Shown: positions 19,352 through 46,243 of the stretch, piece by piece
Position numbering within the stretch: the stretch's first letter is position 1
Layout: each line of letters starts with the position of its first letter
Assembly: GCA_030432565.1 (NCBI GenBank)
Contig: JAUIGV010000001.1
Span: 186,001-250,000 of the forward strand
Origin: Verrucomicrobiia bacterium
GTDB lineage: Bacteria; Verrucomicrobiota; Verrucomicrobiia; Verrucomicrobiales; Akkermansiaceae
Length of the DNA stretch: 64,000 nt
Reading direction: 5' to 3'
The notes under the pieces: model-generated
The model's database searches: none
Seen by the model: only the letters and a program-made list of their open reading frames with translations
Told to the model about the DNA's origin: nothing
Translations under genes and position numbers: made by a program

Positions 19352-20512
19352 GTGAATATCTTGAATCGAATTGTTCTTTTTGGTGCAGGAATGGTGGGTG
19401 CGACCTTTGCCGATGAGTCGGTGATTCGGGAAATTCTGCCTTCAAAAGAGGAGTCGGCATGGCTGGAAATCGATTGGAAAACGGATCTTTGGGAGGCGCG
19501 GAAGGAAGCGGCTCAAAGTGGTAAACCGATTTATCTTTGGGAGATGGACGGGCATCCGCTCGGATGCGTCTGAAACAACGGAGTGGCCGACAGGTTGTTG
19601 GTCTTTGCAAACGAGGAAGTGCAAGAACTCCTGAAGGAAAAGTTCGTCCCGGTGGCTGCGGATGACTGGTATCAGCGGCGGCGAAAGGACAGGGTTGGCG
19701 AGTTCTTTGCGAAAGTGGTCGATCAGAGTCCAAGGAAAGGGAATCACACCAAGCAGGGGCACTATGTTTTTACCGCAACCGGAAAACTGCTAGGGTTCAA
19801 TAATAACAGGGGGCCTGAGAGGCGGTTGAAGATGATGAGGGATGCGCTCACTGCGTGGGAGGAGCTCCCCGTAAGCGAGAGGACGATGGTGGTTCCCGCA
19901 CCTGGAAAGAATGACGAGGGATTTCATCGTGAACTTCCGGAAGGCGGGCAAATCGTGAAGGTTTTCACGCGCTGCCTGGAGGAAAGAGAAGGTCGCTTGC
20001 AAAAGCTGTCGGCGGAAAAAATTGGAAACCTTTCCGCAGTGGATCACTTGTGGTTGCGCAAGGAAGAGATCATGAAACTGGAAGGACTGATCGAATCGGG
20101 AGGGGGGGAGATTTCAAAAGACCTTTCGCTGCGAATCGCAAGATTTCATCTTCGGGACAATACGAGGGGGGAGCCGCGCGACTGGAAGAAAGACGAAGTT
20201 CGTGGATGTTCCTTAAAGGTTGATGGAAGGGGGATTGTGACGGGCAACTTCTTGATTGAGTCCGGCGATGGAAAGATGGGATATCAGGGAAAGATTGAGG
20301 GCGTGATTGCGGTGAAGGAAGGGCGGTTGACGAAGTTTGACACCCTGGTGATTGGTGATCACTGGGGACACAGCCGATACACCGGAGGGGCGAGACCGGG
20401 GCGGAATCCGATGGGGCAGGTTTTTCGACTCTCAGAGGGCAAAAAAGAAAGTGACCGAATTCCGCCCCAGGCGATCCGTTGGGCACCCGGATATTGGGAG
20501 CCGGAGAAGTGA
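19352..20512 (+). CDS. Candidate selenoprotein: secreted thioredoxin-like protein (Sec at codon 74)
   Basis: The gene is read through an in-frame TGA at 19571-19573, giving 386 residues with selenocysteine at position 74. It starts at GTG 19352 with a signal peptide (about 1-20). A thioredoxin-like domain follows ('AQSGKPIYLWEMDG', then G-C-V-U-N-N-G) and continues in the same frame with 'EEVQELLKEKFVPVAADDW' and 'GHYVFTATGKLLG', the expected helix and strands. The C-terminal 180 residues form a second domain I do not recognise. Codons after the TGA are clearly coding and stay in frame to 20512. A hairpin 11 bases after the TGA fits a bacterial SECIS. Without Sec decoding the product would stop at 73 residues, so a nonsense pseudogene is the alternative. 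Confidence 0.75.
19585..19603 (+). promoter_or_regulatory. Putative bacterial SECIS hairpin, selenoprotein 1
   Basis: Starting 11 bases after the TGA, GGCCGAC pairs with GTTGGTC (7 bp, two of them G-U) around a 5-base loop AGGTT with G at loop position 2. The known E. coli fdhF element also begins about 11 bases after its UGA and has G residues in the loop. The hairpin lies within the coding sequence, as bacterial SECIS elements do. Pairing was found by eye; folding energy was not computed. Confidence 0.65.
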
Positions 20513-43219: not shown

Positions 43220-44008
43220 TTACTTCTTTCCTTTTCCACTCTGCTCAAATTCACGAAGCATTTTTTGCATATCGAGAACCGACTTCTTAAAATCAGCCGG
43301 AAGATTGGGAGCATCAAGGACGGCTTTGAAAGCCGAGCTGATTTCAGCCCCGTTCGCTGAGACATCCACGCTCTTTACGGAATTGTTTCCAAAGCCCTCG
43401 GTGAGATTATCGGGAACGTCTCCTTCTTTTTGTGAAGGAGGTTCTCCCAATTTGATGCCGACGGTGCCACGCTTACCCTTTCGCATGATCGTCGCGTTGA
43501 CCGTATCCCCGACTTTCCGGGAACGGAGCACCGTTGAAAGCTCCCTGGAGGTCGCTAGGTGTTTTTCAGCAAGAGCCAGGAGAAGATCGCCGGCCCGAAT
43601 TCCGGCCTTCTCGGCCGGTCCATCGCCAGCCACCAATTCAACCAATAATCCCTCGTCCTCGGCGAGATTGAGATGATCTCGCAAGACTTTGGAAATCTCC
43701 TTCACCCGAATCCCAATCCAGGGATGTGGAGATTTTTCTTCGATTGTACCACCGCTTTTCTGGCGGGTGATTTTTCCGTTCTCATCAGTCGTTTCGGTGA
43801 CGACGCTTTCAACGCCATCGATGACGGTCACAATACGTTTCACCGTTGTCTTGCCATCCGAAGTAATCGTTACTGACTCTTTCCGGTTGGATGAATGGGT
43901 TTCCGCAGCCGGGGCATCGGGATCAGGAATCAATTTCTGGGCTTCACACGGGGACCAGGTCATCAGCAACAAAAGGGTGATGACAAATGTCAGGGAATAG
44001 GAGTTCAT
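43220..44008 (-). CDS. Secreted PDZ-domain protein
   Basis: This 262-residue protein has a signal peptide (about 1-23, ending 'PCEAQ') and a beta-rich segment at about 40-90. One PDZ domain spans about 95-190 ('HPWIGIRVKEI', 'AEKAGIRAGDLLLALAEKHL'), followed by a helical Lys-rich tail. There is no protease domain, so it is a PDZ adaptor rather than a DegP-like protease. It follows the sigma/anti-sigma pair by 33 bases. Periplasmic PDZ proteins next to ECF systems often regulate the anti-sigma factor; that role is suggested only by location. Confidence 0.8.
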   Translation of the reverse strand: MNSYSLTFVITLLLLMTWSPCEAQKLIPDPDAPAAETHSSNRKESVTITSDGKTTVKRIVTVIDGVESVVTETTDENGKITRQKSGGTIEEKSPHPWIGIRVKEISKVLRDHLNLAEDEGLLVELVAGDGPAEKAGIRAGDLLLALAEKHLATSRELSTVLRSRKVGDTVNATIMRKGKRGTVGIKLGEPPSQKEGDVPDNLTEGFGNNSVKSVDVSANGAEISSAFKAVLDAPNLPADFKKSVLDMQKMLREFEQSGKGKK

Positions 44009-44041: not shown

Positions 44042-44470
44042 CTATTGAAATTCGACGGGAGAACAGACGACTTCCCGCCGGATGACCGTTGAGTTTAGTT
44101 TGGTCGGACCTACGGAGCAAAGAGCCAGGGTGTCATCCTGCCACTCCTCTTCGGAGACCTCCCACAATTGGCCATTGTGTTCTTTGATTGCGAGCGTGCG
44201 GCTATTTAAGAGGGTGGAATCTTTTTTGATAACGCTCACAGGGGACTCCAGGTCGGAGGAAACAGTCTCCGCAGAGCGGTCGGGTCGCATAAAAGTGGTT
44301 ACCGTAATCACGCCGACAAGAACTGCGGCAGCTGCCGCAATAAAAAGCTGCCGACGAGCTCCGGTCACTTTGGGCCGCATGGGTTCAGCGGACATCCGTG
44401 CTTTCAGATCCCCAGGAAGGGGGCTCGGTTTAAGGCTGCGGATCAGGTTTTCAAGATCGTTGTCATTCAT
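44042..44470 (-). CDS. Anti-sigma-like membrane protein
   Basis: This 142-residue protein has a short acidic or helical N-terminus ('NDNDLENLIRSLKPSPLPGD'), one membrane segment at about 40-58 ('LFIAAAAAVLVGVITVTTF') and a small periplasmic domain. The ATG at 44468-44470 overlaps the sigma stop as ATGA, which fixes the start. No zinc-binding anti-sigma (HxxxCxxC) motif is visible. The pairing and topology make it the likely partner of the adjacent ECF factor. Confidence 0.7.
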   Translation of the reverse strand: MNDNDLENLIRSLKPSPLPGDLKARMSAEPMRPKVTGARRQLFIAAAAAVLVGVITVTTFMRPDRSAETVSSDLESPVSVIKKDSTLLNSRTLAIKEHNGQLWEVSEEEWQDDTLALCSVGPTKLNSTVIRREVVCSPVEFQ

Positions 44471-44961
44471 GGCATGAGTTCGGTGAGGGTGGTGCACTCA
44501 CGGAGGCGTTCGAGTGCATAACGGTATCGGGAGGTTGCGGTGGCTACGGGAATATTGATGAGTTTGGAGATTGCCGGAAAAGTAAGGTCTCCCCAAATTT
44601 TGAGAAAGAGAACCTCGCTGAGAGTCTCAGGGAGAGTCTCGATGGCAGAGGCCAATTGATGCCTAACATCGTTTGCCGAGAAGTCAGGAACGAACCAATT
44701 CGGGCTGTCGTCGGCAAACTTAATTTCGCGCTTGGATCGGCGGTCAATGCTGCGGCCACAGTCAATGGCGCGCCGCCGGATCGTGGCAAAAACGAGCGAT
44801 CGTTCGGGAAGACCCTCGCTGGTCCTTCTCCAGGCTTCGGTGAGTGCATCCTGTAAAACATCCTTGGCATCAGATTCTGAACGGGTTTTTTGTCTGGCGT
44901 AGAGGAAAAAGGCTTCGCCGTTTTCAGCGATCCAGGAAGACCATAGACCCTCGGTATTCAT
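44467..44961 (-). CDS. ECF RNA polymerase sigma factor
   Basis: This 164-residue sigma factor has region 2 'SDAKDVLQDALTEAWRRTSE' and 'FATIRRRAIDCGRS', and region 4 'TLPETLSEVLFLKIWGDLTF' with helix-turn-helix 'PAISKLINIPVATATSRY'. The start is placed at the ATG at 44961. The frame continues 18 codons further upstream, but that part is not protein-like. It is followed by its anti-sigma-like gene and a PDZ gene. The upstream gene, 103 bases away on the same strand, is the second candidate selenoprotein. Confidence 0.85.
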   Translation of the reverse strand: MNTEGLWSSWIAENGEAFFLYARQKTRSESDAKDVLQDALTEAWRRTSEGLPERSLVFATIRRRAIDCGRSIDRRSKREIKFADDSPNWFVPDFSANDVRHQLASAIETLPETLSEVLFLKIWGDLTFPAISKLINIPVATATSRYRYALERLRECTTLTELMP

Positions 44962-45064: not shown

Positions 45065-46243
45065 TTATTGATTCTTTGGGAATCCATCCGGAAGAATTGG
45101 AATGCCGCGAGGCAGGTCCAATGCCCTGTTGTCAGACTCCTTGCCATCAGGAGAGTCATCCTGATTTGTCGATCGTCTTTCAGGGGTGACGCCATCGGAT
45201 CGCGTTGAGACAAAGGCTGATTTTCCCTTGCCAACCAATGGGGTTGGATCTTTTTCAAACTTTCGGTAGTCCATCATCGGGTGCTTGATCGAAAAGGCAT
45301 TCCCCATCAGGATCTCTCTCTTGGTTTTGCCCGCAAAAATGTCTCCCGGCTCGATTTCCGTCATCATCCCAAACGTTCCCAAAGGGCGATCGGATACCGC
45401 AGCTTCGATTTGGCTGTTGTCATATCCAAGCTCTTTGAGACGGTTACGGTGAGCGCGGCGGACGACTTCATTGACCGCCCCCGCAGAGTTTCCCATTTCG
45501 GCAAAGAGATCTCTGGCAAACTGTATTTCCTCGAGGAGGTCGTCCGGAGATAGAAAACCATTGGCCGCATGAAAAATTTCCCCCTTGGGCGTCATAAACA
45601 GGGTCTGGACATTCTGACCACCGACTCCACGGGCGCAACTTCCGGGCAAGTCATCGGGATCATGCCAGATCGACTTCCCGGCAGTCGGGTCACCGGTGGT
45701 ATTGGAAAAGGTATTTACGAAGTCTTTTTTTAGAAGCCTGCGAACGTCATTATTTGAGAACGACACGGTTCTCATGGTGTGACCCGCACTTCACATGCCG
45801 CCGTCCAATTTGCCGAGGACGCGGAACCACATCACGGGGCGGTCATCGATTGGTGTGGCCTTCCCTGACGCGAGTGTTAAGGCATCTTCCACCTCGGGCT
45901 GCCAGGTGATCCCGTAGAGCTTGACTGCTTGGCCGGAGTCTCTTTTCGGGGAGAACTTTGGCGCCTGCTCTTTGACGAAAGCTTGATCGGCTGCGCTCAA
46001 TTTTGCGAGCGGCACTTCGACGATCGTTAAGTCCTGTTTCTTGAGAGTGACTCGCTTGGTGTTTGGGTTGAAGGAACTGAATGAGGCCTCAATGGAATAG
46101 TTTCCATTTTCACTTTTCCATTCCCTGACGAGAGATCCGGAAATCTCATCGGCGGCGGAAAAAGGGAAAATAAGACAAAGGGCGGCTCCGCCCAAGACAA
46201 CTGCTTTCAGTCTGCTTGTTGTTGGTAACGATCTTGGTTTCAT
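45065..46243 (-). CDS. Candidate selenoprotein: SHD1 + thioredoxin-like protein (Sec at codon 151)
   Basis: The gene is read through an in-frame TGA at 45791-45793, giving 392 residues with Sec at position 151. It has a signal peptide (about 1-31) and an SHD1-type domain at about 38-95 ('REWKSENGNYSIEASF', 'VPLAKLSAADQAFV'). 'VMWFRVLGKLDGGM-U-S-A-G-H' begins a thioredoxin-like domain that continues with 'NNDVRRLLKKDFVNTF' and 'NVQTLFMTPKGEIFHAANGF'. The last 100 residues are a separate, unrecognised region. The part before the TGA ends in the middle of a fold and the part after starts without its first strand, so neither half makes sense alone. A SECIS-like hairpin follows the TGA. A split pseudogene is the alternative. 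Confidence 0.75.
45755..45774 (-). promoter_or_regulatory. Putative bacterial SECIS hairpin, selenoprotein 2
   Basis: On the coding strand, 16 bases after the TGA, TGAGAAC pairs perfectly with GTTCTCA around the 6-base loop CGTGTC. The loop begins 23 bases after the TGA and has G at position 2. These values fit the general bacterial SECIS pattern of a short stem-loop in the coding region just after the UGA. Folding energy was not computed. Confidence 0.6.

Follow-up and report, generated by a model that had tools for sequence, protein, structure and literature searches.

Does the TGA codon at 45791-45793 separate two genes, disable a single gene or encode selenocysteine (Sec) within one protein? 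The question was raised by two open reading frames on the minus strand of the window, the 64,000-nucleotide stretch of DNA analysed here, which forms part of contig C30 of a genome of 5.93 Mb that is 97% complete. Frame 1 covers 45791-46243 and gives 150 amino acids, and frame 2 covers 45065-45775 and gives 236 amino acids counted from its first ATG. An earlier sequence-only reading had described the two frames as sharing one phase with the TGA as the sole separator, and the same coordinates and phase were obtained here.

Reading frames and domains of the locus

Taking the TGA as Sec gave a protein of 392 residues, with U151 contained within the sequence G-M-U-S-A-G and U-S-A-G forming a UxxG motif. 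The features of the locus and its neighbours are listed below.

45065..46243, minus strand: predicted selenoprotein gene, 392 amino acids with one Sec (U151), comprising a probable signal peptide, SHD1, a thioredoxin fold and a helical/disordered tail
46151..46243, minus strand: hydrophobic N-terminus and probable signal peptide, about residues 1-31 (N-terminal sequence only, no signal-peptide program)
45965..46132, minus strand: SHD1 domain, residues 38-93 (Pfam PF03983)
45494..45931, minus strand: thioredoxin-fold domain including Sec, residues 105-250 (structure model and fold searches)
45791..45793, minus strand: TGA read as selenocysteine, in the place of the first Cys of CxxC enzymes
45755..45774, minus strand: bacterial SECIS-type hairpin, 7-bp stem, loop CGUGUC
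45635..45637, minus strand: Cys203, sole Cys of the predicted mature protein and candidate resolving residue (inferred)
44467..44961, minus strand: ECF-like sigma factor (Sigma70_r4_2), downstream neighbour, 66% identity to its sister
44042..44497, minus strand: anti-sigma-like membrane protein, downstream, assigned by position and a hydrophobic segment, 48% identity to its sister
43220..44008, minus strand: PDZ-domain protein, downstream neighbour, 49-57% identity to its sister

The SHD1 domain previously proposed for the first frame was recovered with PF03983 at 33-36 bits (35.5), above the Pfam cut-off of 23.7. The thioredoxin domain gave a structure model with a pLDDT of 81.2 and a pTM of 0.79, in which the Sec (model residue 47) is positioned directly before the catalytic helix (residues 48-57), placing the TGA at the N-terminus of this helix. 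The full-length model was of low confidence (pLDDT 57.9) and was not used. Frame 1 had been thought to end at the start of the thioredoxin fold, with frame 2 supplying the rest; frame 2 does hold the rest of the fold, but the first strands and helix are already present in frame 1.

The same SHD1-thioredoxin protein, with a TGA at the same place, was identified in one congeneric MAG (G365, record JALQTQ010000100.1, Akkermansiaceae DAH.28; loci L020 and L049). The thioredoxin domains of the window protein and this sister are 74% identical, PF03983 scored 30.3 bits in L020 (cut-off 23.7), and both Cys203 and the hairpin are conserved. Synonymous sites are saturated between the two genes (pS about 0.7-0.8), and pN in the thioredoxin parts was 0.22 before the TGA and 0.14 after it, with dN well under dS on either side. 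The low pN relative to pS on both sides of the TGA indicates that the two halves have been selected as one protein. The downstream sigma factor, anti-sigma-like and PDZ genes are also conserved in both species; the anti-sigma-like protein at 44042..44497 had no Pfam match.

These comparisons bear on whether the locus contains two genes, in which a 150-residue SHD1 protein would stop at the TGA and a 236-residue protein would restart through translational coupling at the ATG at 45773-45775. This ATG lies 15 nt past the TGA and opens a long downstream frame, but under such an arrangement the TGA would split the thioredoxin fold at its catalytic helix. The residues from the TGA to Met157 are identical in L020, Met157 itself is not conserved across the wider family, and 82 sequences conserve both sides of the TGA as one domain, leaving the two-gene arrangement very improbable.

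Homologues and selenocysteine machinery in Verrucomicrobiales

A genome lacking Sec decoding genes would have refuted a single selenoprotein, but the complete set is present in the genome of the window: tRNA-Sec(UCA) (54.4 bits, gathering threshold 47; assigned by Aragorn as SeC, anticodon TCA), SelB (315.6 bits), SelA (489.1 bits) and SelD (386.7 bits; L177, G000:C73:16415-17344). The SelD gene has its own in-frame TGA (CGG-TGA-ASK, giving CGGUASK) at the position where SelD is known to carry Sec, UxxK (PMC13188914); UGA is thus already in use for Sec in a textbook gene of this genome.

A profile of the thioredoxin domain was run against 387 genomes of the order. At E<1e-9 this gave 89 matches, of which 84 contained exactly one TGA and five were stop-free, TAA and TAG being absent, and 82 distinct thioredoxin-domain sequences with TGA at the site were extracted from the fetched loci. 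A chance TGA is excluded because the same TGA occurs in 82 distinct homologous domains. Homologues that end or start at this point as separate proteins would likewise have counted against one protein; instead the homologues run through the same TGA. The Sec position is invariant in an alignment of 25 sequences (A5), with W, P and R nearby, and 77 of the 82 members have Gly at U+3, the other five having Ala. The main motifs are GHPLGC[TV]UNNG, [FY]CUANG, NCUQNG and GETUNNG, with GMUSAG in the SHD1 type. Homologues in PVC bacteria with Cys at the Sec site had been expected. A few do exist, with the motifs SCANS and CCANS (L115, L117, L150), but they are rare and most relatives keep the TGA; the genome of one Cys-form relative (G028) gave no SelA hit.

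Could the TGA instead be a sequencing error, or the nonsense mutation of a pseudogene derived from a normal Cys or Trp gene? The genome is a draft and the TGA stands alone in an otherwise open frame, as either would predict, but the same TGA is present in many genomes, including another MAG of the genus, purifying selection is strong downstream of it, and strong matches carry only TGA, never TAA or TAG. Almost no credence is left for a pseudogene or error.

Family members were found in 69 of the 387 sampled genomes, with up to several copies in each. SelA was identified in 118 of the 387, comprising 65 of the 69 genomes in which a strong TGA member was found compared to 53 of the 318 others (Fisher p 9e-36, a value that is overstated since the genomes are related). 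Among the four SelA-less exceptions, Aragorn confirmed a tRNA-Sec in G005 and G200; in G055 and G218, which are 77% and 59% complete, neither SelA nor tRNA-Sec was seen alongside the TGA members. When the profile search was extended to the phylum, all strong TGA members listed belonged to this order, and the best match outside it, among the matches listed, had an E of 7e-11 and no stop. Within this sample the family looks restricted to Verrucomicrobiales. The TGA matches at L057-L059 were rejected as members, being either plain SHD1 proteins or gene ends read through by chance.

Several further thioredoxin-like candidates were observed. One is a paralogue in the window itself, which belongs to the largest branch of the family and is probably selenoprotein 1 of the sequence-only reading:

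19352..20512, plus strand: thioredoxin-like selenoprotein candidate, TGA at 19571-19573, motif GHPLGCVUNNG

A third member in the same genome (L154, G000:C34:294080-294508) has the motif GHPCGETUNNG and a long N-terminal extension. Another thioredoxin-like frame with an in-frame TGA (L176:448-1695, G000:C74; GVFUPGYTAT) resembles the VPGUxxT theme and gave no NCBIfam hit at E 0.001. A further branch with the motif GHCUATATQVRG is represented in two families of the order (L048, L056), whose thioredoxin domains are 63% identical and share the same TGA. The SHD1 type is most closely related to selenoproteins that combine HEAT repeats and thioredoxin with the motif CUANG (L021, L022, L062, L074), which have the same hairpin sequence.

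The hairpin following the TGA

A perfect 7-bp hairpin with the loop CGTGTC, reported earlier at 16 bases 3' of the TGA, was found as described. The hairpin, UGAGAAC-CGUGUC-GUUCUCA, starts 16 nt past the TGA with its loop 23 nt past it. Published limits for a bSECIS are a loop of 3-9 nt, a stem of 4-16 bp, a G in loop positions 1-2, a spacing of 16-37 nt and an MFE of -7.5 or lower (PMC13188914), all of which are met (7 bp, CGUGUC, 23 nt, -12.2 to -14.6 kcal/mol). The stability is unexceptional, with a z of about -1.2 to -1.8, and 21 of 200 shuffled sequences folded equally well. Stability alone was rejected as evidence, and the window hairpin becomes convincing only through comparison with its relatives.

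Qualifying bSECIS hairpins follow the TGA in 59 of the 82 members compared to 21% of in-gene control positions, and with the stricter loop G[GU] the values are 57 of 82 and 7.9%; the simple SECIS rules are failed by 23 of the 82. The loop word CCGTG occurs 18-32 nt past the TGA in 39 of the 82 members and 1.3% of controls. Within the UNNG subfamily, the largest with 54 distinct sequences, 89% of stem cells pair compared to 27-47% in slid versions, a level reached by none of 500 shuffles, and double (compensatory) changes were seen at five of the seven pairs. The sequence GAGA[AG]CCGTG[AT]CGTTCTC is common to the six genes of the SHD1 and HEAT-thioredoxin branches, a set in which variation is too low for informative covariation. 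When the window gene was compared with its sister, identical residues were encoded by identical codons at seven of the seven degenerate codons in the hairpin but at 77 of 184 (42%) elsewhere, and the eight hairpin codons (156-163) form the longest identical-codon run of the gene. All of these SECIS comparisons are limited by sequence relatedness and coding constraint.

Leaky decoding or a code change, with UGA read as another residue such as Trp, would in principle hold the frame open in the same way as any readthrough. Such a reading is very unlikely given that the rare stop-free relatives have Cys at this position, as DUF255 relatives have the Cys of CxxC, that the trait tracks SelA, and that the TGA is followed by a SECIS-type hairpin in a genome with a full Sec system. 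The single 392-residue selenoprotein with Sec in G-M-U-S-A-G put forward in the sequence-only reading is supported by the Sec machinery and by the homologues continuing through the TGA. One protein with a Sec-decoded UGA and a thioredoxin fold is accordingly held with high confidence, and Sec decoding of UGA 45791-45793 is near certain; both conclusions are computational, with no protein or RNA data.

Fold, proposed chemistry and relation to known families

Structural comparison using Foldseek and VIA-align gave Thioredox_DsbH (7tkv, 3ira), DsbD-gamma, AGR2/3, the ER thioredoxin-like protein 1sen and the Bacteroides cytochrome-c-biogenesis domain 3f9u as the nearest folds. Thioredoxin-fold chains were aligned by VIA-align with Z values of 12-15, the 3f9u alignment having a Z of 15.2 over 118 residues at 2.4 A. 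Thioredox_DsbH/DUF255 (PF03190) is among the closest by both fold and profile, and U falls on the first Cys of the CHWC motif of DUF255 relatives; in contrast, DUF255 proteins contain CxxC and no TGA. The PF03190 match of the window protein spans the TGA but is sub-threshold at 11.8 bits (Pfam cut-off 27), as is a second score of 16.7 bits. AGR2 and AGR3 (9i3u, 3ph9) share a secretory thioredoxin fold (Foldseek E 1.4e-4 for AGR2, VIA Z about 12) and have a single-cysteine CxxS motif, but they are animal proteins with Cys instead of Sec and are only about 15-18% identical.

Among known selenoproteins, the VPGUxxT thioredoxin-like (seleno)protein family (NF041382/NF041383) is also thioredoxin-like and carries Sec close to where the catalytic helix begins, and several relatives of the window protein match it weakly (E 0.001-0.09). 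These matches reach 12-19 bits against curated cut-offs of 350/275, and the window protein itself gave no hit to either model at E up to 1. The family studied here differs in having UxxG (GMUSAG in the window protein) rather than VPGUxxT, and the VPGUxxT family lacks SHD1. The Trx7/PDZ domain (seleno)protein NF041199 is a further thioredoxin-like selenoprotein, but it has a CxxU motif and a PDZ domain in the same chain, and only one relative gave a match, which was sub-threshold.

On the computational evidence SelB and tRNA-Sec decode UGA 45791-45793 as Sec, guided by the downstream hairpin; the rest of the proposed mechanism is inferred. The protein would be exported, an inference from its N-terminal sequence alone. 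The selenol of U151 in UxxG could then act as a one-centre oxidoreductase outside the cytoplasm by way of a selenenylsulfide cycle, although this chemistry has not been shown. A resolving Cys is missing from its usual position in the UxxG motif. A Cys is located 1-4 residues before Sec in 79 of the 82 members and may resolve the intermediate in most relatives; none is found there in the SHD1 type, where Cys203 is the only Cys outside the signal peptide and might take this role. The partnership of Cys203 with U151 has not been shown, and its assignment as resolving residue is a tentative inference. SHD1 may tether the protein to a partner or substrate, and the linked sigma/anti-sigma/PDZ cluster may control the gene or respond to envelope stress, but neither this role nor this link has been shown.

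A redox role for the U151 protein is considered reasonably probable, as an inference without activity data. The absence from UxxG of the second Cys of dithiol oxidoreductases, together with the conserved ECF-like sigma/anti-sigma/PDZ cluster adjoining the gene, would also fit a non-redox selenoprotein in which Sec serves to bind a metal or a sulfur/selenium species for storage, sensing or delivery, the sigma cluster being the output. The nearest folds, however, are mostly thiol-disulfide oxidoreductases, no metal-binding motif was seen and the nearby Cys in 79 of 82 members fits a selenenylsulfide, so that a binding function appears unlikely without being excluded.

No NCBIfam (June 2026) or Pfam model matched the thioredoxin part at cut-off in the window protein or the relatives tested. 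Many thioredoxin-fold selenoproteins appear in the 2026 catalogue of 119 prokaryotic selenoprotein families, but its Table 1 contains no SHD1-thioredoxin family and no thioredoxin-like UxxG family, UxxG being given only for arsenite methyltransferases, a methyltransferase double selenoprotein and rhodaneses (PMC13188914). The hypothetical selenoprotein GOS_C was ruled out as an earlier description of the family, as its motif is UxxC (PMC2398784). No such family is named in the main-text passages available from the Planctomycetes selenoprotein paper, whose supplement was outside the scope (PMC4807772), and no description was found in the literature on Verrucomicrobia or Akkermansiaceae and selenocysteine, a search that excluded most subscription papers and preprints. 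What appears to be new is the family together with its UxxG centre and SHD1 architecture, whereas a bacterial selenoprotein with a thioredoxin fold is known as a kind.

Apparently, this is a large and hitherto unrecognised selenoprotein family in Verrucomicrobia. On balance we favour an order-wide superfamily of exported UxxG thioredoxin-fold selenoproteins, often several per genome, that may carry out selenium-requiring redox chemistry and has an SHD1 branch in which the vicinal Cys was swapped for a distant resolving Cys. Since Cys so seldom takes the place of Sec, methods that depend on Cys homologues would have overlooked the family, and standard gene calling would leave its members split or truncated. 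The family exposes a blind spot of such detection, and the authors of deep-Sep state that their filter may lose selenoproteins without Cys homologues (PMC12013277). The rarity of Cys at the Sec position also lets the family serve as a direct test of why selenium is needed by some enzymes, and the family suggests that annotation greatly understates selenium use in Verrucomicrobia, most of which would take place outside the cytoplasm.
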